Origin: a virus
DNA length: 32,207 nt
Virus record (IMG/VR): IMGVR_UViG_3300044636_000070
Location: 1 to 32,207 of that record
Direction: 5' to 3' (one strand)
Within the stretch, counting starts at the first letter, position 1; every line of letters starts with the position of its first letter. Under the pieces are notes generated by a model. The model was given only the letters and a program-made list of their open reading frames with translations. It was not told where the DNA came from and did not search any database. Below, one piece after another: positions 8,705 to 32,207 of this stretch. A program made the position numbers and the translations under genes.

Positions 8705-9265
8705 ATGGGTACTTCAACGGTATCCGGGCCTTTTAGGTCTCAGAACGGTTTCCAAGAATTAGTTAATGGCGAATGGGTGCCCGTAAGCGGGGGCGGTAGT
8801 CCCCTGTCTCTTACCACCACTGGCACTTCAGGCCCTGCTACCCTTGTTGGTAGCAATCTAAATATTCCGAACTACGCCACCGGCGGCGGTGGCGGCGGGG
8901 GTAATACGACTATTATTCCGTGGGTCGGCGGTAATTCCCCAACTATTTATACACTCCCGGCGTTTACAGCACCCGGACAAACTGCTAGTTTTGCTTGGGA
9001 GTTTCATAATTCTAGTGGGTCAGGCGATTACCTAGAAGTAACAATGGCGCCCATGCCCGGGGTAGATGTAATATTCTTTTTTGCTATTACTTCTGATTCT
9101 TTCAATAACATTTCTCAAAACACAGGCATGAACTCAGTCGGGGTTGCAAACCCGACGATGGCTACGTCTCTTTTTACCGCTACTTTTGTAAGCACAATTG
9201 TATACTCAGGCGATACATACGCGATCATTGGCATAACTGCGGCCAATTTAATTGGCGGGGGTTAA
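8705..9265 (+). CDS. Tagged tail-fibre-like protein A
   Basis: A 186-aa protein with three parts. Residues 1-22 are the tag beginning MGTSTVSGPFRSQNGF, shared with the genes at 9421 and 11162. Then comes a Ser/Gly/Thr-rich linker containing SLTTTGTSGPATLVGSNLN, a motif common in phage tail-fibre proteins, ending in seven glycines. The C-terminal beta-rich domain (about residues 75-186) starts TIIPWVGG, contains YTLPAFTAPGQTASFAWEFH and resembles protein C at 11162 along its length. The design suggests an anchored particle appendage with an exposed head domain; this is inference. The start has GAGG 9 bases upstream. Confidence 0.75.
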   Translation: MGTSTVSGPFRSQNGFQELVNGEWVPVSGGGSPLSLTTTGTSGPATLVGSNLNIPNYATGGGGGGGNTTIIPWVGGNSPTIYTLPAFTAPGQTASFAWEFHNSSGSGDYLEVTMAPMPGVDVIFFFAITSDSFNNISQNTGMNSVGVANPTMATSLFTATFVSTIVYSGDTYAIIGITAANLIGGG

Positions 9266-9420: not shown

Positions 9421-9876
9421 ATGGGTACTTCAACGGTATCCGGCCCGTTCCGGTCACAAAACGGCTTCCAAGAATTAGTTAATGGCGTCTGGACCCCCAT
9501 CGGTGGCGGTGGCGGTGGCGGTGGTGGCGCTGTTGTAACTATTAATACCGCAGATTTCCCCGGCACGTACCAGCTACCGGCTAGCGCCGCTGTTGGCGAT
9601 AGAATTACGGTGCAAATTGTCAGCCCGACAAACGCCGATGCCGAAGGCGGTTTTATTATTTCCGCTGAAGATGGCAGCTTGTTAAAACGATTTAACTCAA
9701 TTACCCCGTCGTTCATTTTTTATGGGGATAATGATGACGGAAGCTTGCCCGGTATTGCGTTAATGGTGAATTGTACGTTTGTTCGTATTAACAGTACGCC
9801 TTACGGCATGTCGTCTAGCATTAACTGGATGGCAGTCATTGATGTCATCAACGGTTCTGTTACCACTCCTCCTTGA
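9421..9876 (+). CDS. Tagged tail-fibre-like protein B
   Basis: A 151-aa protein with the same first 22 residues as proteins A and C (MGTSTVSGPFRSQNGF and six more), then GVWTPI and a run of nine glycines. The C-terminal domain differs from A and C: it opens AVVTINTADFPGTYQLPASA and continues as a beta-rich fold (GDRITVQIVSP, GSLLKRFNSITPSF, INWMAVIDVI) resembling generic beta-sandwich modules of phage fibres. It is thus a domain swap behind a constant tag. AGGAT at 9411-9415 provides a ribosome binding site. It is followed 7 bases later by the first glycosyltransferase. Confidence 0.75.
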   Translation: MGTSTVSGPFRSQNGFQELVNGVWTPIGGGGGGGGGAVVTINTADFPGTYQLPASAAVGDRITVQIVSPTNADAEGGFIISAEDGSLLKRFNSITPSFIFYGDNDDGSLPGIALMVNCTFVRINSTPYGMSSSINWMAVIDVINGSVTTPP

Positions 9877-9883
9877 TTAAACC

Positions 9884-10687
9884 ATGATCCCGAAACAGAT
9901 CCATCAGACATTCTTCAAACGGACGGGATTACACCCGAAAATTGAAGAGAACATCGCCTCGCTTGTAGCTAAAAATCCGGGGTGGACGCACAACTTCTAT
10001 ACCGACGATGACTGCGTGGAGTTTATCAAGCAGCACTACGGTCAGGAGATGTTGGACACGTACAACCTGATTAATCCTAGCTACGGCGCGGCGAGATCGG
10101 ATCTGTTTCGGTATCTGCTGATCTACGCAGTGGGCGGCGTATATCTGGACATCAAGAGTTCGGTAATCATGCCGCTTGATAAGCTCACTGCAAACAGTGA
10201 GTACATCCTGTCCCATTGGGCAGATGTACCAAAAGGTATGTTTGATGGGGATGCACCAGAGCACGGTGAGTTCCAGCAGTGGCACGTGATCGCAGCGCCT
10301 AAGCATCCGTTCCTAGAGGCAGTCATCGAGCGCGTGGTGCGTAACATCCACGACCCGGCAAACCGTGAACTCAGTGGGAAGCTAGGCGTGATCCGCCTCA
10401 CTGGCCCTGTGCCATACACGCGGGCAATCATGCCGATCCTGCACAAGCATCCGTACACCCGGTACCGCACAGACAACGACGCTGGGCTGGTCTACACCAT
10501 CATGCCCGGCGGGCACACGGGGCACTTCTTTTTGTATAACAATAAAGACAACGTGCATTACTCGCGGTTCTCGCATCCTATTATTGGTAATGCAGAACCA
10601 GTGCGGAAACAGCATTGGATTTTAGATACCGCGTACGCAATTCACGAAAACGCACTTCGAAGAAAACAGGTAGCTGCCAGTGCATAA
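9884..10687 (+). CDS. GT32-family glycosyltransferase
   Basis: A 267-aa protein matching bacterial GT32 (OCH1-like, Gly_transf_sug) enzymes, which transfer a sugar from a nucleotide-sugar donor onto a glycan or protein. It starts IPKQIHQTFF (residues 2-11), has NPGWTHNFYTDDDC (31-44) and the donor-site block ARSDLFRYLLIYAVGGVYLDIKS (70-92), where D89 stands in the DxD-type motif but its partner position is K91, a variant I associate with this family. H-rich stretches near the C-terminus (GGHTGHFF, NKDNVHYSRFSHP) fit the family. No signal peptide or membrane segment. It overlaps the acyltransferase by 8 bases. The acceptor is unknown: host surface glycan or a virion protein. Confidence 0.88.
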   Translation: MIPKQIHQTFFKRTGLHPKIEENIASLVAKNPGWTHNFYTDDDCVEFIKQHYGQEMLDTYNLINPSYGAARSDLFRYLLIYAVGGVYLDIKSSVIMPLDKLTANSEYILSHWADVPKGMFDGDAPEHGEFQQWHVIAAPKHPFLEAVIERVVRNIHDPANRELSGKLGVIRLTGPVPYTRAIMPILHKHPYTRYRTDNDAGLVYTIMPGGHTGHFFLYNNKDNVHYSRFSHPIIGNAEPVRKQHWILDTAYAIHENALRRKQVAASA

Positions 10688-11159
10688 CACGATTGCCCAA
10701 TTGTTGGAGCAGGTGTTTAACTTTTTATGGAAGTACCCGCGCGTTCAAGATCATCATAAGGCAAACAGATTTGATAGAGATTGGCGCAACCACCCTCGGA
10801 TCAATGTCCACGAAACAGTAGATTGCGACGGTGAGGCGGTGCTGAATGTAGCGTCGGGCAGTATTACGATGGGCGAGTACAGCTTTCTTGGGCAGCGGTG
10901 TATGTTAATCGCAGGTACGCATGACATCGCCAAGAAAGGTAAGCTGCGCAAAGATGGTGTTATAGAAACGGGCTACGACATCACAATCGGTAAAGGCGTG
11001 TTCATCGGGGCGGGGTCGATAGTTTTAGGCCCATGCAGGATTGGTGATCACGCAGTAATTGGAGCTGGGTCTGTTGTACCGGCGGGCGAGTACGAAGGCG
11101 GATGTATATACGCTGGCAACCCAGCGGTGTTTAAGAAACGAATTACCTTTACGGAGTAA
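10680..11159 (+). CDS. Left-handed beta-helix (hexapeptide) acyltransferase
   Basis: A 159-aa protein of the WcaF/NodL/maa type, usually acetyl-CoA-dependent sugar O-acetyltransferases. It shows hexapeptide-repeat strands (ITIGKGVFIGAGSIVLG, residues 101-117; CRIGDHAVIGAGSVV, 119-133) and the typical end YAGNPAVFKKRI. A likely catalytic His is H81 in AGTHD. The start is GTG at 10680, inside the end of the glycosyltransferase gene, so the two are probably made together. The pair could build an acetylated sugar on a common acceptor. Substrate unknown. Confidence 0.87.
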   Translation: MHNTIAQLLEQVFNFLWKYPRVQDHHKANRFDRDWRNHPRINVHETVDCDGEAVLNVASGSITMGEYSFLGQRCMLIAGTHDIAKKGKLRKDGVIETGYDITIGKGVFIGAGSIVLGPCRIGDHAVIGAGSVVPAGEYEGGCIYAGNPAVFKKRITFTE

Positions 11160-11161
11160 TC

Positions 11162-11611
11162 ATGGGTACTTCAACGGTATCAGGACCGTTTCGGTCACAG
11201 AATGGCTTTCAAGAACTAGTTAATGGAGTCTGGACGCCTGTAGGTGGTGGCGGTGGCGGGGGCAGTTCGCCTACTATCATCCCGGTTACGCCCGGAGGTA
11301 CTACTTACACATTACCGGCGTTTACAGAAGTTGGTCAAACTGCGACGTTTCTTTGGGAATTTCATTACCCAGATGGCAACCTTACTCTAACAATTGCGCC
11401 GATGGCGGGTTTTGATGCGGTAATTTTTACTGGGGTCGAAATTAATTTTAATAGCAATTCTAATATCCAAGATTTAAATATTGCAACTGTCACAGGCACT
11501 AGTACATCCGCTAGTTATATTGTTGCGTCTTTTTCTGGCATTTGGGAATACGGCGGCAACGTATATGCAATAATTAACTTGAACGTGATTAACACCATTC
11601 TTGCGGGGTAA
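11162..11611 (+). CDS. Tagged tail-fibre-like protein C
   Basis: A 149-aa protein with the shared 22-residue tag, GVWTPV, seven glycines and a beta-rich domain paralogous to protein A (SPTIIPVTPGGTTYTLPAF, then GQTATFLWEFH and APMAGFDAVIF). A short ending NTILAG mirrors NLIGGG in A. GGAG at 11153-11156 lies 5 bases before the ATG. With the next mini-gene it forms a two-gene unit that duplicates the one at 8705-9411. Probably a surface-exposed particle protein; not proven. Confidence 0.75.
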   Translation: MGTSTVSGPFRSQNGFQELVNGVWTPVGGGGGGGSSPTIIPVTPGGTTYTLPAFTEVGQTATFLWEFHYPDGNLTLTIAPMAGFDAVIFTGVEINFNSNSNIQDLNIATVTGTSTSASYIVASFSGIWEYGGNVYAIINLNVINTILAG

Positions 11612-11754: not shown

Positions 11755-12020
11755 AAACTGACGTTAAATCCGCTTACGTCTCAGCTACCGGAGTTGTCTA
11801 TGGGGCGCGGACGCGGCTTCGTGGTGCTCTGATTGTGCCCGGCGATACCGCTGGGTTAATCGTCTTCACCAATGGCGATGGTGGCGCTACGATCCTGTCG
11901 GTCACTACGCTTGCGAACGGCACCCCGTTTTCGGTCGTAATTCCTGAAGACGGCGTTCTTGTATCGAGCTTGCTGTACGCGACCGTCAGTAACGCTACGG
12001 CTACCGTCTTCTACGGATGA
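11751..12020 (+). CDS. Small beta-rich protein, unknown function
   Basis: An 89-aa protein with alternating hydrophobic and small residues typical of a beta sandwich (TRLRGALIVPGDTAGLIVFTN, split around residue 30; GVLVSSLLYATVSNATATVFYG at the end). Start and stop both overlap neighbours by 4 bases. Proteins like this occur in phage structural clusters as minor or decoration proteins. The context, between a tagged-protein unit and a glycosyltransferase, leaves its role open. Confidence 0.7.
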   Translation: MKTDVKSAYVSATGVVYGARTRLRGALIVPGDTAGLIVFTNGDGGATILSVTTLANGTPFSVVIPEDGVLVSSLLYATVSNATATVFYG

Positions 12021-12763
12021 ACGTTTTTCAGATATTCCTGTGCGACCCGGATAAGCTTCAGATCAACCTGACGCAGTGTGCGGGTGTTTTCGCTGCTAAG
12101 AAAAAAGCTGTCCTAGACGTATACGGCGACTGTAACTATCAGCTTTATACGAACCCGGAAGCACAGGAATTCTTGAAGAAGTTTGGTCGAGAAACTCTGA
12201 CGGCGTTTAACTCGTTAGCCTCATATGCGTTCCGCGCCGATCTACTACGCTACTGCTTGTTGTATGAGTATGGGGGATGGTACTTTGATCAGTCCATCAT
12301 CCCCGTTGTTAAAGTTGAGCCTACTACCAAAAACATCGTGTTTCTAAGTAGGCCGGGGAAATATTTTGAAAACATGAATTTGTATTCATGTGGACGCGAA
12401 CCATTCTACGAAAAAGTGATTAACGCGGTTGTTGCAAATATTAAGAAGCGTAGTTACGGCGATCCATTAAGATATAGGGGTCAAGCCAGCTTGAACATTA
12501 CTGGCCCATTGTTCGTACGTAACGTGTATATCAAGTATTTGACTCAAGACGCCCCTAGACAAGCCACGGAAATACGCAATAGATTTGCCTTTGGCGAATA
12601 TTATCGCCCAGATAACTTAAAAGGGCACTTGACCCTTGGCGGCAAGCTGGTCGCTATATACGGTAAAGACGACACGCAATTTGGACGTATCGACTACATG
12701 GGGTTTGTAGGCACAAACGACTACAATAAACTTTGTCTTTCTAAAGCTGTATATATTAATTAG
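12017..12763 (+). CDS. GT32-like glycosyltransferase, divergent
   Basis: A 248-aa protein weakly like the GT32 enzyme at 9884. It keeps the donor-site block SYAFRADLLRYCLLYEYGG (residues 69-87) followed by WYFDQS with D91, but has no N-terminal IPKxIHQ motif; residues 1-45 are instead MNVFQIFLCDP and a variable region. Later motifs (FLSRPG, RYRGQASLNITGPLFVRNVY) fit the family's acceptor half. Start overlaps the upstream stop (ATGA). A second transferase in one cassette suggests two sequential glycosylation steps or two acceptors. Catalytic activity is plausible but less sure than for the first enzyme. Confidence 0.75.
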   Translation: MNVFQIFLCDPDKLQINLTQCAGVFAAKKKAVLDVYGDCNYQLYTNPEAQEFLKKFGRETLTAFNSLASYAFRADLLRYCLLYEYGGWYFDQSIIPVVKVEPTTKNIVFLSRPGKYFENMNLYSCGREPFYEKVINAVVANIKKRSYGDPLRYRGQASLNITGPLFVRNVYIKYLTQDAPRQATEIRNRFAFGEYYRPDNLKGHLTLGGKLVAIYGKDDTQFGRIDYMGFVGTNDYNKLCLSKAVYIN

Positions 12764-14421: not shown

Positions 14422-14643
14422 ATGAGAGATGCAGAAGTCGGAAAGACAATTCTAGATGGCTTGTCTGTTATCACAGTTATCGGTACTCTTGTTGATATGT
14501 TGCCATCTATCGCGGCTGTGTTTACTATCCTGTGGACCGGTATCCGTATTTGGGAAACCGACACGGTGCAGCGGATGTTAGGACGGAAAAAAGATGCCGA
14601 GCAAGAGCAAAGCTCAACACAATCTGATGGCGATGGTCGCTAA
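14422..14643 (+). CDS. Small membrane protein, second holin candidate
   Basis: A 73-aa protein with two hydrophobic stretches (residues 11-25 and 27-45; LSVITVIGTLVDMLPSI and AAVFTILWTGIRIW) and a charged Gln/Ser/Asp-rich tail. Small size, membrane hairpin and polar tail fit class II holins, and related small proteins occur in aquatic podoviruses. It lies just after the lysozyme. Its last 50 bases overlap the next gene in another frame. Confidence 0.7.
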   Translation: MRDAEVGKTILDGLSVITVIGTLVDMLPSIAAVFTILWTGIRIWETDTVQRMLGRKKDAEQEQSSTQSDGDGR

Positions 14644-14971
14644 CGACCCCGCTGCCGCTAAACGTGTTGGTATTCCGCAAAAAGTAGGTCGTGATTACGT
14701 CGAGGCTGATAAAGGCCGCAAATTTAACCAAGGTGGTGACATGAAAGAATCTAAAGCTATGATGGGCAAAGAAGTAGCCTTCATGAAGAAAAAGGGCGCT
14801 CCGAAGTCGATGGTCAAGCATGAAATGGCTGAGATGAAGGGCATGAAGAAAGGTGGCAAAGCTTATGCGGGTGGTGGGCTTGCTTCTGGTCACAAAGCCG
14901 CAGACGGTATTGCTAAACAAGGCAAGACCAAAACTAAGATGGTCAAAATGAATTACGGCGGCAAGTGCTGA
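14594..14971 (+). CDS. Basic Met/Lys/Gly-rich protein with C-terminal tag, copy 1
   Basis: A 125-aa protein. The start MPSKSKAQHNLMAMVAND resembles the DUF3008-like MPSKSxAQ proteins seen in phages and bacteria, followed by GIPQKVGRDYVEADKG. The middle is Met/Lys-rich (MMGKEVAFMKKKGAPKSM) and the end contains HKAADGIAKQGKTKTKMV, a variant of the tag ending the next two proteins. Highly basic and probably disordered. Starts 50 bases inside the upstream gene. Function unknown. Confidence 0.75.
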   Translation: MPSKSKAQHNLMAMVANDPAAAKRVGIPQKVGRDYVEADKGRKFNQGGDMKESKAMMGKEVAFMKKKGAPKSMVKHEMAEMKGMKKGGKAYAGGGLASGHKAADGIAKQGKTKTKMVKMNYGGKC

Positions 14972-14972
14972 G

Positions 14973-15353
14973 ATGGACCGTCCTAATAAACAGGAGTCGA
15001 AGAAAATGCAGCCCGCTAAGATGATGCCCAAGCGTATGAAGCCGAAGACGCTGGGTCCGATGCAAGCCGCGACCCCGCCTGATACGTCGCAAGATGACGC
15101 TCAAGTGCAGGCCAATATCAACCGACTGATGGAATCGCGTCGGGCGGACCAAAACATGATTCCTACGCTCGAACAGCAAGAGCGTATGCGTCGCCAGAAA
15201 GAAGAGTCCGACATGGACACCGCGACTGATAAAGCAGCACAAGATGCTCCGCGTCGGTCGATGGGCCTAGCTAAAGGTGGCTCGGTGAGTTCCGCTTCCA
15301 GTCGCGCTGACGGTTGCGCTCAACGCGGCAAGACTAAAGGACGGTTCGTATGA
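14973..15353 (+). CDS. Basic protein with C-terminal tag, copy 2
   Basis: A 126-aa, Met/Gln/Lys-rich protein without a globular-looking core, ending KGGSVSSASSRADG, CAQ, RGKTKGRFV. A strong AGGAG at 14992-14996 sits 9 bases before an in-frame ATG at 15006, so the real start may be there (115 aa) rather than at 14973. The ATGA overlap with the next gene implies coupled translation. The tag is nearly the same as that of the next gene while the rest of the two proteins is unrelated. Confidence 0.72.
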   Translation: MDRPNKQESKKMQPAKMMPKRMKPKTLGPMQAATPPDTSQDDAQVQANINRLMESRRADQNMIPTLEQQERMRRQKEESDMDTATDKAAQDAPRRSMGLAKGGSVSSASSRADGCAQRGKTKGRFV

Positions 15354-16036
15354 AAAAGCGTAAATTCTCCGACGGTGGTCGGTTCGAAGAAGATACTTAC
15401 GAGCGGGCAAAACGCTTCTTGCAACAGTCTGGTGCCGAGGGCGAGACCCCCGCGCTAGATGAAATTCTTGCGAGTAAACGTGCTGCGCGTTCTGTCTCGC
15501 GTCCCCCGATTAAGACTGTCGAGGGTGATGAAGGCCCGGCCATTACTCGTACGGTAGATACGAGTGGAGCGGAAGCTGACGATCGTCGTGCTGCCGCAGA
15601 GAGTCAAGCTGCGCGGTCGCGAGCGATGGCTCCCGCTGCACCCGCCCCTCGCGCTGCTGCTCCCACGCCCCGCGCTGCCGCACCGGCCCCCGCTGATGTG
15701 CCGCCCCTTGTCTCCCCGCCGCAGCCTGAGCCTGATCGGCTTGTCTCTAACCGGAACCGGATGGGTGAGCGGGCTGCGGAGCAGATGGAGAAGAAGGGCT
15801 CGATCTACAGCCGTGATTATGGTAAGCCTCGTGCTGAGCGTGAAGCCGCAGCCGCTGCCCGGCAGTTGCCGACGCCTCGGTCACAGCGCATGTTCCAGTC
15901 TCGTAGGCGGACTCCATATCAAGCTGCTGCGGTAGCGGGGAGCCCCGGTTATGCGAAGGGCGGCTCTGTCAGTTCGGCGTCGAGTCGTGCAGACGGGATC
16001 GCTAAACGTGGTAAGACCAAGGGACGTGTACTGTGA
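15350..16036 (+). CDS. Pro/Ala/Arg-rich basic protein with C-terminal tag, copy 3
   Basis: A 228-aa protein, mostly low complexity. Residues ~85-125 are an Ala/Pro run (APAAPAPRAAAPTPRAAAP), flanked by Arg-rich segments (SQRMFQSRRRTPYQ). It ends YAKGGSVSSASSRADG, IAKRGKTKGRVL. Predicted disordered and strongly basic. It may be a DNA-contacting or packaged protein, but only composition suggests that. The stop shares bases with the next ATG (TGATG). Confidence 0.75.
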   Translation: MKKRKFSDGGRFEEDTYERAKRFLQQSGAEGETPALDEILASKRAARSVSRPPIKTVEGDEGPAITRTVDTSGAEADDRRAAAESQAARSRAMAPAAPAPRAAAPTPRAAAPAPADVPPLVSPPQPEPDRLVSNRNRMGERAAEQMEKKGSIYSRDYGKPRAEREAAAAARQLPTPRSQRMFQSRRRTPYQAAAVAGSPGYAKGGSVSSASSRADGIAKRGKTKGRVL

Positions 16037-21333: not shown

Positions 21334-23247
21334 ATGCCACTCAAGAAAGTTTTACCTAAACCCGGCGTCAACCGGGAAAATACCCGCTACACCAACGAAC
21401 AGGGTTGGTATGTTAGCGATAAGGTGCGCTTTCGTCAGGGTACGCCTGAGAAGATCGGTGGATGGTTGCGTATTAATAACTATACTTTTCTCGGTGTTTG
21501 CCGGGCGCTGTTTAACTGGTTTGATCTTAACCAGAGTAATTGGATCGCGGTTGGGACTAACTTAAAGTATTACTTGACCCGTGGCACGCAGTATTACGAC
21601 ATTACCCCGATCCGATACACAACTGCTGCGGGTGGGGCTACTTTTTCGGCGGTAACTGTTCCGCCGTTTAGCTCTACGATTACAGTTACTTGCCCCGCGC
21701 ATGGCGCGCTAATCAATGACTTTGTGACTTTTAGTGGTGCGGTTAGCCTTGGCGGGAATATCACGGCAGCGGTGCTCAACCAAGAGTATCAGATCGCTTC
21801 CATTATCGATAACAATACATTCGTTATCACTGCTAAAGACCCGGTTACCGGGTTACCGGTCACGTCAAACGCGGCTGATACTGGGAATGGCGGCACGCTT
21901 ACTGTCGCTGCGTTTCAGATTAATACCGGTAACGTAGTAGCTACTACGCCCAGCCCGTCAAGTACAGCTTCGTGGGGGTTAGGCCCGTGGGGCACCGGTC
22001 CGTGGGGCGGTGGGTCAAACACAGTTTTGCCGCTGCGGGTGTGGAGTCAGGGTAACTTCGGTGAGGACTTAGTTTTTGCCCCACGTGGTGGTCGTATTTA
22101 TTACTGGGACGCCACGCTCGGCCCATCTGTTCGCGGGAAAGATCTCGCTACACTCCCCGGTGCTGCTAATGTCCCGATCATCCAGAACTATGTAGTAATT
22201 TCTGACGTTTACCGGTTTGTTTTCGCGTTTGGGGCCAATGATTACGGGTCGCCAACGCAAAACCCAATGCTTATTCGTTGGTCTGATCAAGAAGACGCGC
22301 TAGACTGGACTCCAAGCGCAACAAGCCAAGCTGGGAGTATTTTGTTGTCGCGGGGCTCCGAAATCATAACGGCGCTTCAATCACGGCAAGAGATACTTGT
22401 TTGGACTGATACCGCGCTTTATTCTTTACAGTACCTTGGGGCTCCTGATATTTGGGGGGCGCAGCTCCAAGGCGATAACATCTCTATCGCGGGGCAGAAC
22501 GCGGTTGCTTTCGCAAACGGGGTGTCGTATTGGATGGGTGTGGATAAGTTTTACAAGTACGACGGTCGTACTCAAACGCTTCGCTGCGACCTTCGGCAGT
22601 ATATCTTCCAAGATCTTAACATCCTTCAAAGCCCACAGATTTTTGCTGGTACCAACGAAGGATTTAATGAAGTCTGGTGGTTTTATTGTTCAGCAAACTC
22701 CAACCAGATTGACCGATATGTCATCTATAACTATCTAGAGGACATCTGGTACTACGGGAACTTAGGGCGTACCGCGTGGCTCGACTCTGGGTTACAAGAT
22801 TATCCGATTGCTGCTACGTATAGCTACAACCTTGTTGAGCACGAAAATGGGGTAGATGACGCAGAGACTCCGGCTGTTGCGCCGATTGTGGCGACCATTG
22901 AGTCTTCAGAATTTGACCTAGACGACGGGCACAACTTCATGTTCATCTGGCGGGTGCTGCCAGATTTGACTTTCCGTGGGTCTACCGCGACCAGTCCGAG
23001 CGGGGTCTTGACGTTACAGCCAATGGTTAATTCTGGCTCTGGTTATACGACGCCCGCTTCTGTTGGTGGTAATAACGCAAACACAGTCGTGCGTACTGCA
23101 ACTATACCTATAGAGGCGTTTACCGGCCAAGTCTTCACGCGCGTGCGTGGACGGCAGATGATCATGAAGTTCGAATCAACCGGGCTTGGGGTAAACTGGC
23201 AGCTCGGTTCAATGCGGCTTGACATGCGTAATGATGGACGGCGCTGA
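21334..23247 (+). CDS. Large tail protein, P22 gp10 / tail-nozzle-like
   Basis: A 637-aa beta-rich protein. The N-terminus (KPGVNRENTRYTNEQGWYVSDKVRF, split around residue 18; RQGTPEKIGGWLR) is characteristic of a family related to P22 gp10 packaged-DNA stabilisation and T7 gp12 nozzle proteins. Repeated WSDQEDALDW, YLGAPDIWG, GVSYWMGVDKFYKYDG and IYNYLEDIWYYGNLG segments suggest propeller-like blades. It likely forms part of the short tail tube below the adaptors. An insert at about residues 95-200 is Gly/Thr-rich and may be an exposed loop. Family link is by pattern memory. Confidence 0.78.
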   Translation: MPLKKVLPKPGVNRENTRYTNEQGWYVSDKVRFRQGTPEKIGGWLRINNYTFLGVCRALFNWFDLNQSNWIAVGTNLKYYLTRGTQYYDITPIRYTTAAGGATFSAVTVPPFSSTITVTCPAHGALINDFVTFSGAVSLGGNITAAVLNQEYQIASIIDNNTFVITAKDPVTGLPVTSNAADTGNGGTLTVAAFQINTGNVVATTPSPSSTASWGLGPWGTGPWGGGSNTVLPLRVWSQGNFGEDLVFAPRGGRIYYWDATLGPSVRGKDLATLPGAANVPIIQNYVVISDVYRFVFAFGANDYGSPTQNPMLIRWSDQEDALDWTPSATSQAGSILLSRGSEIITALQSRQEILVWTDTALYSLQYLGAPDIWGAQLQGDNISIAGQNAVAFANGVSYWMGVDKFYKYDGRTQTLRCDLRQYIFQDLNILQSPQIFAGTNEGFNEVWWFYCSANSNQIDRYVIYNYLEDIWYYGNLGRTAWLDSGLQDYPIAATYSYNLVEHENGVDDAETPAVAPIVATIESSEFDLDDGHNFMFIWRVLPDLTFRGSTATSPSGVLTLQPMVNSGSGYTTPASVGGNNANTVVRTATIPIEAFTGQVFTRVRGRQMIMKFESTGLGVNWQLGSMRLDMRNDGRR

Positions 23248-24632
23248 TGTCCCTTATTGTCACCTCAAACTACGAACTTCAGAAAGTAGCGCCACCTGCA
23301 TTACCACAGGCTACCCCGATATACTCGCAGGCGTACCAAGACCAGCTTAATAACGTACTGCGTCTGTACTTCAACCGCCTGAACAGTATTCTGGGGCAGC
23401 TAATGGCTATTGATACGTCGATCCCGGTTTCAATCGGTGGCACTAACGTAGATGCTTTTGGGCGGTTGCGGGTCAGCAACCCCCTGACGTTGTTTGACTC
23501 ATCGCACCGTTACGCGGACAACAACCTGTGGGCCAACAGTATCACTGGGACCGCTGCGGCGACATTTAACGCTAATGAAGGGTTGGTTGACTTGACGGTT
23601 GGCTCGGCCAGCGGCGATCAAATCATCCGCGAGACCATCAAAGTCTTTTCGTACCAGCCGGGTAAAAGTTTGCTGGTGATGAACACGTTCGTTTTTGGCG
23701 ATGCTAAAGCCAACCTTCGCCAACGTGCTGGCTACTACGGTGCGGCCAACGGGATCTACTTCGAACGCGAAGGCTCCATCAACTATATGGTCGAGCGCAG
23801 CAGCGTGACAGGCGCTCCAATCAACACCCGTGTTGCACAAGCAAATTGGAACCAAGACCCGCTGGACGGTACCGGCCCGTCGGGTCTGACGCTGGACTCT
23901 TCCAAGGCGCAGATTCTTTACCTTGACATTGAGTGGCTGGGGCTTGGTACGGTGCGCACCGGGTTCATCATCGACGGGGCTTTCGTCCCTGCTCACAACT
24001 TTGACCACGCCAATTTGGTTACCACCACGTACATCACCACCGCTTCTTTGCCGCTGCGGTATGAGATGACCAACGTGGCCGCAACGACCGGGGCCAGCAC
24101 TCTCAAGCAAGTCTGCTCGACGGTGATCTCTGAGGGCGGGTACGAGTTGCGTGGTGCTCAGTTGTCTGCCGGGAACCCCATCACAAGCCCCAGAACGCTG
24201 ACCACTGCTGGTACGCTCTACCCAGTTGTCTCATTCCGCCTCAAATCAACGCGGTTGGATGGAATCGCCATCCTGACCGCAATATCAATTTTGGGCATCA
24301 CAAACAACGCCAACTATCAATGGTCAGTGGTGGTAAACGGCACCACAACAGGCGGCACTTGGGTCAGTGCAGGTGCAAACTCTTCTGTTGAGTACAATAT
24401 TACTGGCGCATCGTTCTCTGCTACCGGGGGCCGCATCTTGGCAACTGGCTATTTTCAAGGCTCTAACCAAGGGGCGACTAGCGTGGACATTTTGAAGGCT
24501 GCACTGTTCACCACCCAGCTTGAGCGCGACCCCTTCACAGCAACCGCTTATGAGATTACGCTAGCCTGCACGGGGGCGTCCAACGGCAATCAAGTTCTCG
24601 GTTCTTTGGACTGGGAAGAGATCAGCCGGTAA
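23247..24632 (+). CDS. Virion protein with short anchor and DAFGRLRVS domain
   Basis: A 461-aa protein in two parts. Residues 1-75 include PQATPIYSQAYQDQLNNVLR and LYFNRLNSILGQL, a helical leader similar to other aquatic-phage tail proteins. From residue ~70 (DAFGRLRVSNPLTLFDSSHR) a larger beta-rich domain begins, of a type seen in virion proteins of very different phages. The C-terminal third (RLDGIAILTAISIL and TTQLERDPFTATAYEITLAC) looks like a separate beta module. The gene begins in TGATG. A tail or head-surface component is likely; no enzyme motif. Confidence 0.7.
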   Translation: MSLIVTSNYELQKVAPPALPQATPIYSQAYQDQLNNVLRLYFNRLNSILGQLMAIDTSIPVSIGGTNVDAFGRLRVSNPLTLFDSSHRYADNNLWANSITGTAAATFNANEGLVDLTVGSASGDQIIRETIKVFSYQPGKSLLVMNTFVFGDAKANLRQRAGYYGAANGIYFEREGSINYMVERSSVTGAPINTRVAQANWNQDPLDGTGPSGLTLDSSKAQILYLDIEWLGLGTVRTGFIIDGAFVPAHNFDHANLVTTTYITTASLPLRYEMTNVAATTGASTLKQVCSTVISEGGYELRGAQLSAGNPITSPRTLTTAGTLYPVVSFRLKSTRLDGIAILTAISILGITNNANYQWSVVVNGTTTGGTWVSAGANSSVEYNITGASFSATGGRILATGYFQGSNQGATSVDILKAALFTTQLERDPFTATAYEITLACTGASNGNQVLGSLDWEEISR

Positions 24633-24671: not shown

Positions 24672-25088
24672 ATGGACGGACTCGATCCCCAAGAGACTGA
24701 AGAGATTATTCGTATAATTACCGCGTACTTTCGTAAAGTTACGGGGTCAGAAGAAGAGACGCAGAAGATGCTGGCTGCACTCGTGCAGACCATACAAGAA
24801 GATAGCGCCAAGTTAGTCCATCTCGGTGACTACGTTTTCTTAGTCTTGGTGCGTGCTAAGGGGGTAGTTGAGATTCATACGATGGGGGATACAAATAGCC
24901 CCCGTGAGCTTGCGAAAAGCATCAAAATGCTTGCTGCATACTTAAAAGGCATTGATGTAAAAATTGCTTACACCTATGCAGAAGACAAGAAGTTTCTTAA
25001 ACTAGCGAAAATGGTAGATTTAGAAGTTGAACAATATAAATCTACAGCGAATGGCAAACCCATAAACGTCTTCTTGGTAAAACTCTAA
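24672..25088 (+). CDS. Small alpha/beta protein, GNAT-like fold possible
   Basis: A 138-aa protein starting with charged helices (PQETEEIIRIITAYFRKV), then strands and helices: YVFLVLVRAKGVVEIHTMGD (strand pair, residues ~54-73), LAKSIKMLAAYLKGIDVKIAYTY (residues ~80-102) and VEQYKSTANGKPINVFLVKL. The order resembles the late half of a GNAT acyltransferase, but there is no clear acetyl-CoA pyrophosphate loop. Similar small proteins precede the large internal-virion-type gene in aquatic phages as I recall. The TAATG junction couples it to the giant gene. Role unknown. Confidence 0.6.
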   Translation: MDGLDPQETEEIIRIITAYFRKVTGSEEETQKMLAALVQTIQEDSAKLVHLGDYVFLVLVRAKGVVEIHTMGDTNSPRELAKSIKMLAAYLKGIDVKIAYTYAEDKKFLKLAKMVDLEVEQYKSTANGKPINVFLVKL

Positions 25089-28000
25089 TGCCCGCCGCTC
25101 CGCTGATCCTCGCTTATGCTGGTGCCTCTGGCTTTACAGCGGCGATTGGTACAAGTCTTGCGGCAGCTATTGGCGTGAGTTCGATTGGTACGGTCGCCGC
25201 CACGGCGATTGGTACGGCGGCGCTGTCTGGTGGGTTGACCGCTATTCAGGGGGGCAGTGTTAGTAATATCCTGAAGTCGGCGGTGATCGGCGGCGTGACA
25301 TCCTATGCGGGGGGCGCTATTGCGGCCGAGGTGTCGCAGTCAATCTCCTCGGATGTATTTTTCCAAGCCATCGGAAACGATGTCAGTGGCGCTACTGCAA
25401 AAGCCATGAGCGATGTTGCTGGCAATATGGCTGGCGCGATGGCTTCTGGGGCGTTCGTATCTGGTTTCCAAGCTTTAGCAGCGGGTAAAGACCCGATACA
25501 GGCATTACTAAAAGGTGGGCTTACTGCCGGGGTCACAGCGGGAGTCGGCTCTACACTTAACGAGACCCTGAAAGGGCTTGGGATTGATAGTTCGTTTGCG
25601 ACGAACACATTCACCCGCGCTGCATCTGCTGCAATCGCTTCAGAGCTTCTTGGCGGCTCCACAGAAAAAGCATTTCTTGGGTCTTTGACATCTTCTGCGA
25701 TTGACACAGTTGGGCGGTATCTTGGCGGGACTTTTAATTCGGTATTGAAAGACGCTTCTGCTGGTGTAAGTGACGTTGTTACACGGTTTAATGATGTCGA
25801 ATCGGATATCCGCGAAAATATCTATAAGCAGAATTCAGTCGTTGCTCAAGATACAAAAATTAGGGAGTCTCTCCAAAGAGAAGCTGCTTATTTACAGAGA
25901 AGTATCGACTACTACAACGCGAATGAAGCCCCTTATGATTATGATGGGCGTTATGCTGCACGTCTTAGAGTGCGCGCCAATGAGTTACAAGCAGACGTAG
26001 AAGAATATAAGACTACAACAAGACCGGCACTTGAAGCTAAAATCGCAGACTACAAAGATGACTACGATGACCTAACGGAGTCTCTTGGCGGACTACAAAA
26101 AGAATTAACTACCGCTATATCCGAGTTTCAAGTCCAAGAACTTGCTAACGCCGCTAAAGTAAGTGCGGCATTTAATGCGGTCGCGGAGATTAAAGATCTC
26201 TATAAAGAAGCAAAAGGGGTCGATATCCCGGATAGTCTTTTAGCTGAGTATCTACCGGCTATTGATCCCGCTAAAAACGTCGCTAACGACCCGACGAGTA
26301 TTAATGGGCTAGTTCAAGAAATTAATGTTCGTAAAGAAGTACCTGATTTCGACGAAGCCTCATATAAAGCAGCGATGGGGGTATCGTCATGGGATAAATC
26401 ATTTAATCCGTATGCGCATTTTTTAGAGACAGGCAAAGATCTTGATATACCAACTAATGCTGAAGATTTAGCGAAATATAATCAGCTCAAGGAAATCGCG
26501 GCAAAAGAAGGTTATACGTTAAAGCCCGAAGATATCAAGTTGTACCGTGAGTTTGATAATCCGGATAAGGCGGATGTTGCCGCTGATCTAACAGAACAGC
26601 TTGATAAAAAAGTTTTAACGTCTTCCGAATTAAGTCAGATTGAAGCGGAAGAAGGTATTAGACTAACATATGCGGAACGGGATGCGCTCCTTAAAACAGG
26701 TGGGACGGAAGAAGAACTCGCGTCTAAAGTTCGTGGGATTCTTGACCCGCGCTATTTTTCTAAGTCTGAAGCTGAGCAAGCCTTAATTGAGGCTGGAGTT
26801 GACCCCACGTTAGCTAAAGATCAAGCTTGGCGGGCTTCTGGTCAAGACGACAGTAAGTTGGCAGAGGCTGTTGATAATTTAACTTTAGATGCTGACGAAG
26901 TTTTGGCCATCGCCAAACGAGAAGGTTTGACACTTACACGCGAAGAAGCTCAAGAAATCGCTAAATCAGCGGGGTCTTCATCGTCCGAATATAATTTAGA
27001 GAAAAAAGTTACTCCTGTCTTAGATGCACGGGGGGTAACCTATAACGAAGCTTATAACGCCGCAGCCGCTGAAGGATATCGGTTAACTGAGGATGAATTT
27101 AATAAACAATTTGCTGGCAAAGCTGGGTCTGAAACCGACTTATTAGCCCAAGTGCAAGGCTACGCTGACAATAAATATACGACACGAGCCGAGGCCGAAC
27201 AGGCTCTTATTGACGCTGGGTTTGATCCAGAATTCGCTAAGTCGCAAGCTTTTTTTGCTCAAGGCGCGGGTGAAGGCAAAGTCCAAGAAACTGTTAACAA
27301 ATACACCCTTGACGCTGATGAAGTTCTAGCTATCGCGGCTAAGGAAGGTGCGACACTTACTCGTGAGCAGGCTCAAGAAATCGCGAACCGCGCGGGGGTT
27401 GGTTCTGCGTATGATCTTGAGGGCAAAATTACCCCTAATCTCGACGCTCTTGGTTTAACACTTGCTGAGGCTAAGAATGCCGCAGCGGCTGAAGGCTATA
27501 CGTTAACTGATAAAGAATTTCAGCAATTTGCTGGCAAAGCTGGGTCTGAAGCCGATCTGTTAAAACAAGTCCAAGACTATGCAGATCCTCTTTACACTAC
27601 ACGAGCTGAAGCTGAACAAGCCCTTCTTAACGCCGGGTTTGACCCCGAGTTTGCTAAACAACAAGCTCTTTTCGCCCAAGGCGCGGGGGAAGGTCGGGTC
27701 CAACAAACTATTAATCAGTACACTCTCGATGCTGATGAAGTTCTAGCTATCGCAGCCAAGGAAGGCGCGACACTTACCCGCGAACAAGCTCAAGAAATAG
27801 CTGATAAAGCGGGCGTTGGTTATGCCTACGAACTCGAACGTGGGATCACACCAGATTTAGATACTCTTGGTTTAACACTTGCTGAAGCTAAGAACGCCGC
27901 AGCGGCTGAAGGCTATACGTTAACTGATGAGGAATTTAAACAGTTTGCTGGCAAAGCTGGGTCTGAAGCTGACTTGTTAGCCCAAGTTCAAGGCTACGCG

Positions 28001-31000
28001 GACAATAAATATACGACACGAGCCGAAGCCGAACAGGCTCTTATTGATGCTGGATTTGATCCAGAATTCGCTAAGTCGCAGGCTTATTACGCTCAAGGTG
28101 CGGGTGAAGGCAACATCCAAGAAACTGTTAACAAATACACCCTCGACGCTGATGAAGTCCTAGCTATCGCGGCCAAGGAAGGCGCGACACTTACTCGTGA
28201 ACAAGCTCAAGAAATAGCCGATCGAGCGGGCGTCGGTTATGCATATGAACTTGAACGTGGGATCACACCAGATTTAGATGCTCTTGGTTTAACACTCGCT
28301 GAGGCTAAAAATGCCGCAGCGGCTGAAGGTTATACGTTAACTGATGAAGAGTTTAAGCAATTTGCAGGCAAAGCTGGGTCTGAAACCGACTTGTTAGCAC
28401 AGGTTCAAAGTTACGCTGACGATAAATACACGACCGAGGATGAAGCTAAACAACTTCTTTTAGATGCGGGGTTATCAGAGGAACAAGCTGAAGAGGAAGC
28501 TTGGTTTGCATCAGGCGCGGGGGATCGTACTGCTGCGGTTAAACAGACTGTCGATAAATATACAGAAGCGGCGGAATCTGGGCTAGATATTCCAGTGTTA
28601 TCAGACGAAGCGGAAGCAGCCGCGAAAAGATTAGTGGATTTGCAAGCGATCGCTGTTGAAGAAGGCGTTAAACTTTCTGAAGAAAATCTGAATAAATACT
28701 TACAGTCTGATGACAATATTCAGGATATTCAACAAGAATTTGATAAATCAACCGCGTCGCAAGAAGAAATACAGGCCATCGCTGAAAATCAAGGCTATAC
28801 CTTAACTGACGAGGATGCAGCAAAATTCGCTACCCTCGATGAGTCACAGGTCGAGGCACTTGTCGATGACGCTGTAATGACGCCTGACGAGGTGCGGAGC
28901 TATGCAGCTACGCTCGTGCCTGAAGGATTTGAATTATCTGATACCGAGATCCAACAACTAGGCAGTGGAGACGAAGCTACTATCCGCAGTCGCCTCGAAA
29001 GCTATGTCGATCAAAATTACATTGATGAAGCTGAGCTACGCGCAGAAGCTAAGAAATATGGCTATACGTTATCCGATGAGGATATCGAAAATTATGTCGG
29101 GCGTGGGGGCGAGTCTGCGGTACTTGGACAGGCTAGTGCTGATTTTGACCGTCAGACCGTTGACCGTGCTGAACTTGAAGCGCGGGCTAAAGCTGAAGGC
29201 TATACGCTAACTGACGCAGATATCGCTCGGTTTACTGGGCAGCAAGATGAGGTTGACACGCTTGATCTTGCGCAAGACTATTTTGATGACCGATATATCA
29301 CGCGTACTGAACTGCAAGCTCTCGCAAAACAAGAAGGCTATACACTAACTTCGGCTGACTACAGCGCTTTTAGCGGTAAAGTTGATGATCAGGATACGGT
29401 ATTTGAACGGGCTAATGCTAAATTCTCCGACCCGAACATCGTCGATCTTGATGAACTGCAAGCGCTCGCAAAACAAGAAGGTTACACATTAACCCCCGAA
29501 GATATCGCGGCTTATACCGGACGACGTAACGAGGCTGAAACCTTGAAAGGCGTGCAGGGCATGTTCGCCGCAAAAGGTATAACCGATGCCGAATTAAACG
29601 AATTGCGCTGGGACTATAATGACCCAGAGATGACGCGTGAAGAAGCGCAGAATCTTTCCTCGCAATATGCTGACTGGCTTACAAAATTGCCCGACGCCGA
29701 GGCTGTTGATTACAGTGAGGCGAAAGCGGCTGCTGACTCTGTCAGAGCTAGAACTGGCTATGTGCTCTCTGATCAAGAAATCCGTAATTTTATGGGGATG
29801 TCTCCAGAGTCGGGCCTTTTACAAAGGATGATCGACTACACGGATCCGCGCTATATTGATCTTACCGAAGCGCGTGCTGCTGCAAACGCTGAAGGCTGGT
29901 ATCCCACGGATAGCCAACTTCAGTCGATGGGGTTTGTTGGGAAGCAGGACGAGGCTACGTATCTACCGCAGTACAAGGCTGAATTCGATCGACGGGCTTT
30001 ATCGATCCCCGAGGTTAAAGCAGAGGCCGCGAACTACGGTTATACGCTTACCGATACTGATGCGACAAATTTAAAGTCCGCGCTTGAGACTACAACGCCT
30101 GATAAAACTCTTGGCTACGTAGAAAATAATTATTTGCCCGCCGTTCTTGACGCGCAAACTGTTACGGCGGATGAGATTCGGGATGCGTTTAAGTCATACG
30201 GCTACGAGCCGACCGATGATGAAGTGGCGGCTATTCAGAAGAACTTTACCCCGCCTACTATCAGCCAGCTTACAACAGCGGCTAAGAATCCATACGGGAC
30301 TTATAACCTTCTTAATCGCGGCGCGGATTATTACGCGTTAGGTAATGCCCAAGACCCAACCAAGCCTCAGGGCGTATTTGGTTATATTGACTCTACTAGA
30401 ATTGACAGCGATGAAGTCAAGCAGTGGGCGCTAGATCAGGGATATGACGCAGCAACGGCTGCGGCAGTTGCGGCTAGTTTTCAGCCAATCAGTCAGCCCG
30501 GAGTTAATCTTGAAGGAACTGTGGGGGCGCAACTTCAGCAAGAGTTTGACCGCAATGCAGTGTCAAGCTCAGAAGCATACGACGAATTAATAAAGGCGGG
30601 TGTTCCTGTTGACCAAATTTTAAGCGGTGAGACCGCTAAATTTACGGGTGTAGGCGACGAGGCTACTAAACTACAAGCTGCGCGGGATTATGTTGATAAA
30701 GTAATTGTTACACCGGAAGAAGTCCGCGAACAGCTTATCGCACAAGGTGTCCCCGCTTCTGCGATCACCGATGAAATGGTCACGCCGTTCGTTCGTTCTG
30801 ATTATATCCAGCGGACAACTACTACAGACCCCAATACTGGCTACAGCTTTACTAGAGTTTCAAACTCGGCACCGCGTGAAGACGCAATATTTTCTAATAT
30901 CGGTGCGCAGTATGACCCGCTATACACAAACGCCGATGAAGCCGAGCAAGCTTTTAAAGCTGCTGGCTATACCCCGACTCCCGAAGAAATCGCGCAGTTT

Positions 31001-32207
31001 GTTGGCAGTGGCGGGGAAGATATCCGCCTCAACCAACTGAAGAGTTATGTTGACGCAAACACGCTTGATTTGACTGAGCTTCAAGAACTTGCGGGTAAAG
31101 AAAACTACACGATTACCCCAGAAGATATTGCTCGGTTTGTTGGTCAGGGTAAAGAATCAGATCTGACTTCGCAAGCGTCCAGATACTTTGATGACTCTTC
31201 CGTATCAATTGACGAAGCACGAGCTATTTTTTCTGAACTTGGTTATGAACCATCTAACCAAGAACTCGCGGAGTTCGTCGGCCGTGCGGATGAAGCTGGC
31301 TTAGCGGGGCGTATCGAGAGATTTGTTGACCCACTTATGGTTGACGCGGATGAACTCCGCGCTAAAGCAGCGGAATATGGGTACACGTTGACTCCCGAAG
31401 ACATCGCTCGATACTCTGGTGTGGGTAGCGAAGCAGACGTATTGGATCGGGTTGGCGAGATCTTCTATGACGCGACACAAAAGAAGCCGCCCCTTGCAGA
31501 CGTGACCGAGGGTGTCTTTAAACCTGAAGACACAGCACAGCCGCCTCCCCCGCCTGAGGATGAACCTGATCTTCTTGCGGATGTGACTGAGAGCGTCTTC
31601 AAGCCGACAGACACAACGCAGCCGCCTCCCCCGCCTGAGGATGAACCTGATCTTCTTGCGGATGTGACTGAGAGCGTCTTTAAACCTGAAGACACGTCGC
31701 AGCAGCCACCGCCTCCACCTGAGGGGCAACCTGATCTTCTTGCAGATGTGACTGAAAGCATTTTCAAGCCAACAGACACGTCGCAGCAGCCGCCCCCACC
31801 CGAACCTGACTTACCTATCGTTGAAGATCAGCCGCTAGATATTTCACAGGTTGCGCCCGACGTATCGACTGCGGTTAGTAACGCCCCCTCATCCGGTACT
31901 TTGCTGGCGGGTCTCTCTGATTTCGACGTAGATGTTGGTGATCTGTCGGAAGTTCTCGATGACCTTACTTCTACTGTTCCGGGCGGGCTATCAAGTGATG
32001 AGCTTGATGTTGCATTGTCGGATCTGATTGCACCACCACCGCCTCCGCCCCCACCTCCCCCGGTCGAGGAAGAAGAGATTCCGGTCGAGGAAGAAGAGAT
32101 TCCGGTCGAGGAAGAAGAGATTCCGGTCGAGGAAGAAGAGATTCCGGTCGAGGAAGAAGAGATTCCGGTCGAGGAAGAAGAGATTCCGGTCGAGGAAGAA
32201 GAGATTC
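25088..32207 (+). CDS. Giant repeat protein, incomplete at the right edge; putative virion/ejection protein
   Basis: Begins at ATG 25088 (TAATG with the gene before) and stays open to the edge: at least 2373 codons. Residues 1-230 are Gly/Ala-rich with hydrophobic helices (AGASGFTAAIGTSLAAAIG near the start), like membrane-active ejection proteins. Residues ~235-380 form a charged coiled-coil region (DVESDIRENIYKQ, ALEAKIADYKDDYDDL). Residues ~450-2130 are about 35 degenerate copies of a 45-50-residue repeat centred on GYTLT. Then follow four Pro-rich repeats, a linker, ten prolines and PVEEEEI repeats. I followed the frame across the window and found no stop. No catalytic motif is visible. 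Position after the tail genes suggests a packaged virion or tail protein; a host-interacting protein is also possible. Confidence 0.88.
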   Translation, partial: MPAAPLILAYAGASGFTAAIGTSLAAAIGVSSIGTVAATAIGTAALSGGLTAIQGGSVSNILKSAVIGGVTSYAGGAIAAEVSQSISSDVFFQAIGNDVSGATAKAMSDVAGNMAGAMASGAFVSGFQALAAGKDPIQALLKGGLTAGVTAGVGSTLNETLKGLGIDSSFATNTFTRAASAAIASELLGGSTEKAFLGSLTSSAIDTVGRYLGGTFNSVLKDASAGVSDVVTRFNDVESDIRENIYKQNSVVAQDTKIRESLQREAAYLQRSIDYYNANEAPYDYDGRYAARLRVRANELQADVEEYKTTTRPALEAKIADYKDDYDDLTESLGGLQKELTTAISEFQVQELANAAKVSAAFNAVAEIKDLYKEAKGVDIPDSLLAEYLPAIDPAKNVANDPTSINGLVQEINVRKEVPDFDEASYKAAMGVSSWDKSFNPYAHFLETGKDLDIPTNAEDLAKYNQLKEIAAKEGYTLKPEDIKLYREFDNPDKADVAADLTEQLDKKVLTSSELSQIEAEEGIRLTYAERDALLKTGGTEEELASKVRGILDPRYFSKSEAEQALIEAGVDPTLAKDQAWRASGQDDSKLAEAVDNLTLDADEVLAIAKREGLTLTREEAQEIAKSAGSSSSEYNLEKKVTPVLDARGVTYNEAYNAAAAEGYRLTEDEFNKQFAGKAGSETDLLAQVQGYADNKYTTRAEAEQALIDAGFDPEFAKSQAFFAQGAGEGKVQETVNKYTLDADEVLAIAAKEGATLTREQAQEIANRAGVGSAYDLEGKITPNLDALGLTLAEAKNAAAAEGYTLTDKEFQQFAGKAGSEADLLKQVQDYADPLYTTRAEAEQALLNAGFDPEFAKQQALFAQGAGEGRVQQTINQYTLDADEVLAIAAKEGATLTREQAQEIADKAGVGYAYELERGITPDLDTLGLTLAEAKNAAAAEGYTLTDEEFKQFAGKAGSEADLLAQVQGYADNKYTTRAEAEQALIDAGFDPEFAKSQAYYAQGAGEGNIQETVNKYTLDADEVLAIAAKEGATLTREQAQEIADRAGVGYAYELERGITPDLDALGLTLAEAKNAAAAEGYTLTDEEFKQFAGKAGSETDLLAQVQSYADDKYTTEDEAKQLLLDAGLSEEQAEEEAWFASGAGDRTAAVKQTVDKYTEAAESGLDIPVLSDEAEAAAKRLVDLQAIAVEEGVKLSEENLNKYLQSDDNIQDIQQEFDKSTASQEEIQAIAENQGYTLTDEDAAKFATLDESQVEALVDDAVMTPDEVRSYAATLVPEGFELSDTEIQQLGSGDEATIRSRLESYVDQNYIDEAELRAEAKKYGYTLSDEDIENYVGRGGESAVLGQASADFDRQTVDRAELEARAKAEGYTLTDADIARFTGQQDEVDTLDLAQDYFDDRYITRTELQALAKQEGYTLTSADYSAFSGKVDDQDTVFERANAKFSDPNIVDLDELQALAKQEGYTLTPEDIAAYTGRRNEAETLKGVQGMFAAKGITDAELNELRWDYNDPEMTREEAQNLSSQYADWLTKLPDAEAVDYSEAKAAADSVRARTGYVLSDQEIRNFMGMSPESGLLQRMIDYTDPRYIDLTEARAAANAEGWYPTDSQLQSMGFVGKQDEATYLPQYKAEFDRRALSIPEVKAEAANYGYTLTDTDATNLKSALETTTPDKTLGYVENNYLPAVLDAQTVTADEIRDAFKSYGYEPTDDEVAAIQKNFTPPTISQLTTAAKNPYGTYNLLNRGADYYALGNAQDPTKPQGVFGYIDSTRIDSDEVKQWALDQGYDAATAAAVAASFQPISQPGVNLEGTVGAQLQQEFDRNAVSSSEAYDELIKAGVPVDQILSGETAKFTGVGDEATKLQAARDYVDKVIVTPEEVREQLIAQGVPASAITDEMVTPFVRSDYIQRTTTTDPNTGYSFTRVSNSAPREDAIFSNIGAQYDPLYTNADEAEQAFKAAGYTPTPEEIAQFVGSGGEDIRLNQLKSYVDANTLDLTELQELAGKENYTITPEDIARFVGQGKESDLTSQASRYFDDSSVSIDEARAIFSELGYEPSNQELAEFVGRADEAGLAGRIERFVDPLMVDADELRAKAAEYGYTLTPEDIARYSGVGSEADVLDRVGEIFYDATQKKPPLADVTEGVFKPEDTAQPPPPPEDEPDLLADVTESVFKPTDTTQPPPPPEDEPDLLADVTESVFKPEDTSQQPPPPPEGQPDLLADVTESIFKPTDTSQQPPPPEPDLPIVEDQPLDISQVAPDVSTAVSNAPSSGTLLAGLSDFDVDVGDLSEVLDDLTSTVPGGLSSDELDVALSDLIAPPPPPPPPPPVEEEEIPVEEEEIPVEEEEIPVEEEEIPVEEEEIPVEEEEIPVEEEEI
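26440..31470 (+). repeat. Array of ~35 degenerate 'GYTLT' repeats (protein level)
   Basis: Typical unit: D-x-x-x-(V/Y)-x-x-x-E-x-x-x-x-A-x-x-x-G-Y-T-L-T-x-x-(D/E)-I-x-x-(F/Y)-x-G and a spacer of about 15. Clear examples are KEGYTLKPEDI near 26507, KKYGYTLSDEDIENYVGRG near 29046, KAEGYTLTDADIARFTGQQ near 29180, KQEGYTLTSADY near 29330, KQEGYTLTPEDIAAYTGRR near 29468 and AEYGYTLTPEDIARYSGVG near 31372. Some units are shorter or replace GYTLT with AGFDPEF. Predicted mostly helical. Unit count is approximate. Confidence 0.88.
26885..28559 (+). repeat. Higher-order tandem repeat, 4 copies of about 417 bp
   Basis: The block LDADEVLAIA begins at 26885, 27308, 27725 and 28142: spacings of 423, 417 and 417 bases. 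Each copy joins three different monomers (a TREQAQ unit, an AEGYTLTD unit and an AEQAL-AGFDPEFA unit) in the same order. The second to fourth copies are highly similar in DNA; the first copy and the end of the fourth have diverged. This points to recent tandem duplication of a three-monomer block. Confidence 0.9.
31493..31817 (+). repeat. Four tandem 27-28-residue Pro-rich repeats
   Basis: Units start at 31493, 31574, 31655 and 31739 (81, 81 and 84 bases apart). Each reads LADVTE-(G/S)-(V/I)FKP, then (E/T)DT-Q and PPPPPE, and closes DEPDL or a variant. The first three are very similar in DNA and the fourth is shorter at its end. They link the helical array to the Pro/Glu tail. Confidence 0.92.
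32060..32206 (+). repeat. Perfect 21-bp tandem array encoding PVEEEEI, truncated by the edge
   Basis: Seven identical, in-frame copies starting at 32060 and every 21 bases to 32186, with one base of an eighth at 32207. It follows ten consecutive Pro codons (32033-32062; the last Pro is the first residue of the array). Because the copies are identical, the array length is likely to vary between strains and to break short-read assembly. Confidence 0.97.

Follow-up and report, generated by a model that had tools for sequence, protein, structure and literature searches.

A giant tandem-repeat protein encoded shortly downstream of the tail hub of a short-tailed phage, a candidate component of the DNA-ejection module

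Short-tailed phages have ejection proteins about which little is understood and whose sequences have for the most part defied classification. On structural-gene maps of podoviruses the internal virion proteins lie to the right of tubeB (PMC10386132), and ejection proteins are described as variable in size, mosaic and fast-diverging (reviewed in PMC8954989). The large polyvalent proteins, which carry LPD domains and DarB-like regions, are predicted to enter the host together with the DNA (PMC5512222). Here we describe a giant gene from an uncultured, short-tailed phage, the product of which resembles gp14, gp15 and gp16 of T7 and gp7, gp20 and gp16 of P22 in its position after the hub, its very large size, its hydrophobic helical module and its rapid divergence, but differs from them in that there is no sequence match, that the proteins of its family contain from 1 to 30 tandem units and that, in relatives, more ejection-like genes follow it. 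With the large polyvalent proteins it shares the giant size and the placement in the late, virion gene block, and one such protein is encoded downstream of it in a relative; no LPD or enzymatic domain was found in the window protein or in the relatives scanned.

The giant reading frame and its neighbours

The window, i.e. the whole stretch of DNA that was analysed, is an IMG/VR virus record of 32,207 bp with the gene order terminase, portal, capsid block, lysis and small genes, tail genes and, as the last gene, the giant ORF. A family match identifies the gene at 21334..23247 (plus strand) as the tail hub of the P22-gp10/T7-gp12 type (tubeB, “stabilization protein”). It is followed by a gene for a virion structural protein (23247..24632, plus strand; PHROG match to phrog_1645), of which the first approximately 50 residues (PPALPQAT...YQDQLNNVxRL) are kept in relatives while the remainder is an unrelated domain (L003:6911-7585, L014:8114-8788). 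Such a constant N terminus combined with a swapped distal part is expected of a fibre or needle, which is probably what this gene encodes. Immediately 5' of the giant ORF lies a gene of 138 aa (24672..25088, plus strand), present in all close relatives with 56-100% identity, for which neither a family match nor a PDB match was found.

The giant ORF (25088..32206, plus strand) is 2,373 codons long and still open at its 3' end, where the contig stops, in agreement with the original prediction of a frame of at least 2373 codons. Its codon-position GC content is 64/42/41%, and the remaining five frames contain 89-283 stops. Since independent contigs carry the same frame in homologues with 78% and 88% identity, the concern that it might be an assembly artefact could be ruled out. 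The hydrophobic Gly/Ala N terminus and the coiled coil that had been predicted are both present. Residues 1-225 (25088..25762, plus strand) form a moderately hydrophobic helical module, also seen in other phage contigs, with 20% A and 15% G, for which the AlphaFold2 model is poor (pLDDT 49.8). Residues 226-462 (25763..26473, plus strand) form a long helical or coiled-coil stretch according to the AlphaFold2 helices, followed by the motif F-[ND]-x2-Y...Y-x-HFL-x2-G, which occupies the same place in relatives.

A three-helix unit and its resemblances

A profile built from the motif of the original prediction found 26 stretches in the window protein, and iteration over the relatives raised this number to 30 (E <= 0.05). 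The 11 units of an initial alignment had differed too much from one another to be of use in the contig search. The 30 units, each of 46-47 residues and spaced mostly 46-48 residues apart, cover residues ~467 to ~2122 (26486..31453, plus strand). At least two further degenerate units are located in the gaps between them, and the predicted “about 35” was therefore a fair count. The unit scores range from 12.5 to 60.7 bits, to be compared with a maximum of 8.5 bits in 1,000 shuffles of the giant protein, and the family consensus of the unit, taken from the profile over the window protein and its relatives, is DPRYVTADEARAAAAAEGYTLTDEEIAAFVGQGDEADLLSQVE. When four units were modelled with AlphaFold2, each formed three helices of about 10, 7 and 13 residues (pLDDT 81); the pTM of 0.42 leaves the arrangement between the units uncertain. 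A structure search with these four modelled units gave no significant match in PDB or BFVD. The unit had not been recognised as a named domain, and it is indeed absent from the curated families of Pfam, PHROGs and NCBIfam, so that the family appears to be undescribed in the libraries searched.

Automatic annotation would nevertheless name the giant protein a member of the Nif11-like RiPP precursor family, because its whole-protein scores exceed the cut-offs both in Pfam (29.5 versus 23.8 bits) and for TIGR03798 in NCBIfam (49.3 versus 32.3 bits). These scores are sums over weak units. In the NCBIfam scan of the window protein no single stretch exceeded the TIGR03798 cut-off, the units of the relatives reached at most 20.6 bits against the cut-off of 32.3 when scored singly, and an isolated consensus-type unit aligns to the last 21 Nif11 positions only. 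What the unit has in common with Nif11 leaders (PF07862, TIGR03798; nitrile-hydratase-like) is a short helix-G[YF]-x-[LP]-[TS]-helix motif, but such a leader belongs to a short precursor with a core peptide, which the giant protein is not. On account of the half-domain alignment and the low scores of single units we rejected the Nif11/RiPP leader identity, which we find hardly credible. Matches to HTH-type Pfam families (AbiEi_4, Sigma70_r3, RTP) were likewise rejected as summed or short-motif matches of the same kind. That a candidate phage virion protein is scored as a RiPP leader shows how repeat proteins can be given a wrong name when curated cut-offs are applied to whole proteins.

The sole similarity of the unit that survived a reversed-sequence control is to EF-hands. 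Searching PDB sequences with the unit profile gave 274 matches, and the 60 listed were all EF-hand proteins or constructs containing one, the best being calmodulin (E 1.5e-5), with an alignment over the helix-linker-helix, i.e. the F-helix/linker/E-helix stretch. The reversed unit alignment gave 0 matches to PDB sequences, showing that the signal is not due to composition alone. The units thus share the helix-linker-helix similarity with EF-hand proteins (calmodulin, troponin C, centrin), but they are without the 12-residue calcium loop D-x-[DN]-x-[DN]-G-x-[ILV]-x3-E, the one pattern match in the window protein, DYSAFSGKVDDQD, being a loose fit. With the unit model the top Foldseek match was troponin C, which was not significant (E 0.2, probability 0.28). 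Genuine EF-hands (EF-hand_1, 4e-18) are found together with repeat units in the giant protein of one relative (L021:9275-12892), where the calcium loop DINNDGVLTGQE comes close after a unit, roughly at the place where the DPRxVTxxE of the next unit is expected. Judged from these sequence comparisons, homology between the units and EF-hands is possible. One could go further and propose that the units are degenerate EF-hand pairs which have lost calcium binding and were amplified into a solenoid, and that block-wise variation in their number adapts the ejected DNA conduit, in its reach or its stiffness, to the envelope of the host. We regard this proposal as unlikely; if true, it would describe the first adjustable repeat stalk of such a kind in a podoviral ejectosome.

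Change of unit number in blocks of three

A part of the array (27059..28438, plus strand) is organised at a higher level, in that the tandem-repeat period is 417 bp, corresponding to 139 residues and three units, with 3.3 copies present. Each block is composed of the three unit types DADEVLAIA, LTLAEAKNAAAAEGYTLT and YTTRAEAEQALIDAGF, and the window protein has four of these super-repeats of three units each. Counting by the first unit type, there are 4 blocks in the window and 3 and 2 in the close relatives L012 and L017, showing that the zone expands and contracts between relatives. The totals of 30, 27 and 24 units in the same three genomes are accounted for by one and two fewer 417-bp blocks in L012 and L017, respectively. 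As regards the idea that repeat number could determine a length, form a tube or offer a sticky surface, what is observed is that the copy number differs between close relatives, and does so in steps of three units. Blocks of one genome share 59-91% DNA identity. As judged from dN/dS values of 0.11-0.19 (window versus L012 and L017) the array is under purifying selection. Between the window and L012 the synonymous distance declines along the gene, the N terminus giving 1.75 and the distal array 0.37, a pattern suggestive of intragenic recombination.

Block-wise copy-number change at a fixed place could also be read as the signature of a tape-measure-like ruler, where the number of units would set a physical length, either of an internal core or of an ejected tube. 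In line with this, one of the relatives that bear units (L134) has GGEFVVPADVV as its terminal motif, and a gene from the same region of phage DSL-LC04 is similar to tape-measure PHROGs in their C-terminal part. However, short-tailed phages have no long tail tube for such a protein to measure, the unit number of related phages lies anywhere between 1 and 30, the hub belongs to the podoviral type and the giant protein gave no tape-measure PHROG match, and we consider a ruler quite unlikely.

Beyond the array lies a linker (31463..32059, plus strand) that is acidic and rich in Pro and contains an 81-bp repeat (31493-31797). It leads into tandem copies of a perfect 21-bp repeat, (PVEEEEI)7 (32060..32207, plus strand), inside which the contig ends. 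The contigs L012 and L017 end at the equivalent position of the protein, in unrelated repeats of 45 bp and 96 bp. It is likely that assemblers are unable to cross this hypervariable tandem region, which would explain why three contigs end alike, and a search for a relative of this subgroup that reads through the C-terminal tandem repeat found none.

Occurrence of the units and the ejection-module context

The first search was seeded with the neighbouring tail-hub gene and fetched 80 viral loci, in many of which a giant ORF comes after the hub, and 1-7 units were present in eight further proteins. Seeding with the unit yielded 26 new loci with 1-17 units, several of them duplicates of one phage; tubeB is found shortly upstream of the unit-bearing giant ORF in 25 of the 26, and the one remaining contig starts within the ORF itself. 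L152 (17 units) and others, likewise with the hub upstream, came from a third search. The repeat family that had been proposed for this phage is thus real in the sense that it recurs, but it is not confined to the phage analysed, as others carry 1-17 copies. In other uncultured phages the unit-bearing giant ORFs are about 1,450-2,470 aa when complete, and the complete proteins (e.g. L114, L121, L123, L129 and L152) have the C-terminal motif [YF]AxGGQVEDxNDMLLRILG, often preceded by a dockerin-like EF-hand pair. The N-terminal ~460 residues of the window protein are found again, in the same order, in L037, L061, L084 and others, and with them the F-[ND]-x2-Y...Y-x-HFL-x2-G motif; later iterations of the N-module profile may have drifted through Ala-rich or coiled-coil sequence, and only matches with an ordered YxHFLxxG were relied on. 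In L004 a frame change at 10273-10304, either an assembly error or a real mutation, breaks the giant ORF near the distal array.

Among 50,697 phage records tblastn gave no match to the window protein, and the proteins of the relatives gave none, insignificant ones, or N- or C-terminal pieces only. Run on HMO-2011 and on eight further annotated phage regions that match tubeB, nine in all, the unit profile detected no unit. None was found either in 84,980 bacterial and archaeal genomes (two scans) or in plasmids (one scan), where it should be noted that the genome, plasmid and phage-record scans used short peptide patterns or tblastn and may miss distant copies.

Since the giant gene comes after both the hub and a fibre-like gene, its product might be a stalk on the outside of the tail, of the needle or fibre type, which plugs into the hub with its N terminus and projects outward with its repeats and coiled coil. 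The hendecad-like coiled-coil runs of complete relatives (GGKITDVETGL in L114), the dockerin-like EF-hand pair near their C terminus and the acidic, extendable array would all suit such a stalk. On the other hand, the N terminus, hydrophobic and rich in Gly/Ala, does not resemble a needle plug, the short GGQVEDxNDMLLRILG motif is unlike a receptor domain, and the role is already filled by the separate gene at 23247-24632 with its exchanged distal part, which makes an external stalk rather unlikely.

Relatives have genes of ~230, ~290 and ~650 aa after the giant ORF and then one for a protein of >1,000 aa, and one of these products, in one relative, is a large polyvalent protein with LPD39 and a DarB-like region. 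A hydrophobic N-terminal segment related to that of L037 (43% over 89 aa) is found in a 640-aa protein of MW202545, where an SLT transglycosylase is encoded three genes later, and in another phage the gene at the corresponding place is annotated as internal virion protein D. The hub-adjacent position, the ejection-like genes downstream and the SLT context in MW202545 together point to the ejection module. On balance we consider it probable that the giant protein is carried in the virion of a short-tailed phage of the P22/T7 type and belongs to its DNA-ejection module (the internal virion proteins), where the repeats would form a helical stalk that can be expanded. The original suggestion of a packaged or ejected protein is hereby the best-supported reading, the gene being situated where podoviruses keep their internal virion (ejection) proteins, and from this we infer that the protein is present in the virion, that it is ejected and that the repeats act as an adjustable spacer. 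The hydrophobic N-terminal module and the coiled coil would constitute the conserved part, and the middle would be a flexible or solenoid-like stalk of three-helix units, gained and lost in three-unit blocks, which could lengthen the scaffold or conduit that is ejected and so adapt it to the envelope of the host. Being acidic and variable, the array would be less suited to binding DNA or to catalysis than to acting as a spacer or stalk. The block-wise variation in unit number, the purifying selection on the array and the three helices predicted per unit agree with this reading.

Several observations speak against the ejection reading. The giant protein gave no match to T7 gp14-16, to P22 gp7/16/20 or to any ejection-protein family in PHROGs, Pfam or NCBIfam, it has a single weak transmembrane-like stretch, and a very acidic array (pI 4.2, net charge -173) is odd for a protein packed with DNA. 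Furthermore, three or four more ejection-like genes come after the giant ORF in relatives, and the giant protein may accordingly be an additional ejection component rather than the counterpart of a known one. The polyvalent protein adjoining in a relative also raises the alternative of an injected “polyvalent”-type effector, the repeats of which would bind a host target; a target that is itself repeated could be bound by such a series of similar units. With an enzymatic domain in no relative scanned and an array of varying length, we hold this effector to be very unlikely. For the ejection module, the fixed genomic address, the natural variants with 24, 27 and 30 units and the shared N-terminal module provide a handle on the role of the giant protein and on the question whether its length is of consequence.

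Elsewhere in the window, three small genes (8705-9265, 9421-9876 and 11162-11611) have the near-identical N terminus MGTSTVSGPFRSQNGFQELVNGxW and a Gly-rich spacer, while their distal parts differ. They are located among genes judged by eye to be sugar-modification-like (9884-10687, 10680-11159 and 12017-12763), and could possibly encode exchangeable surface proteins on a common anchor. Three adjoining genes (14594-14971, 14973-15353 and 15350-16036) encode small basic proteins with a similar C-terminal motif, approximately GGSVSSASSRADGxAxRGKTKGR, which is also present in a related phage (L014:1-534).
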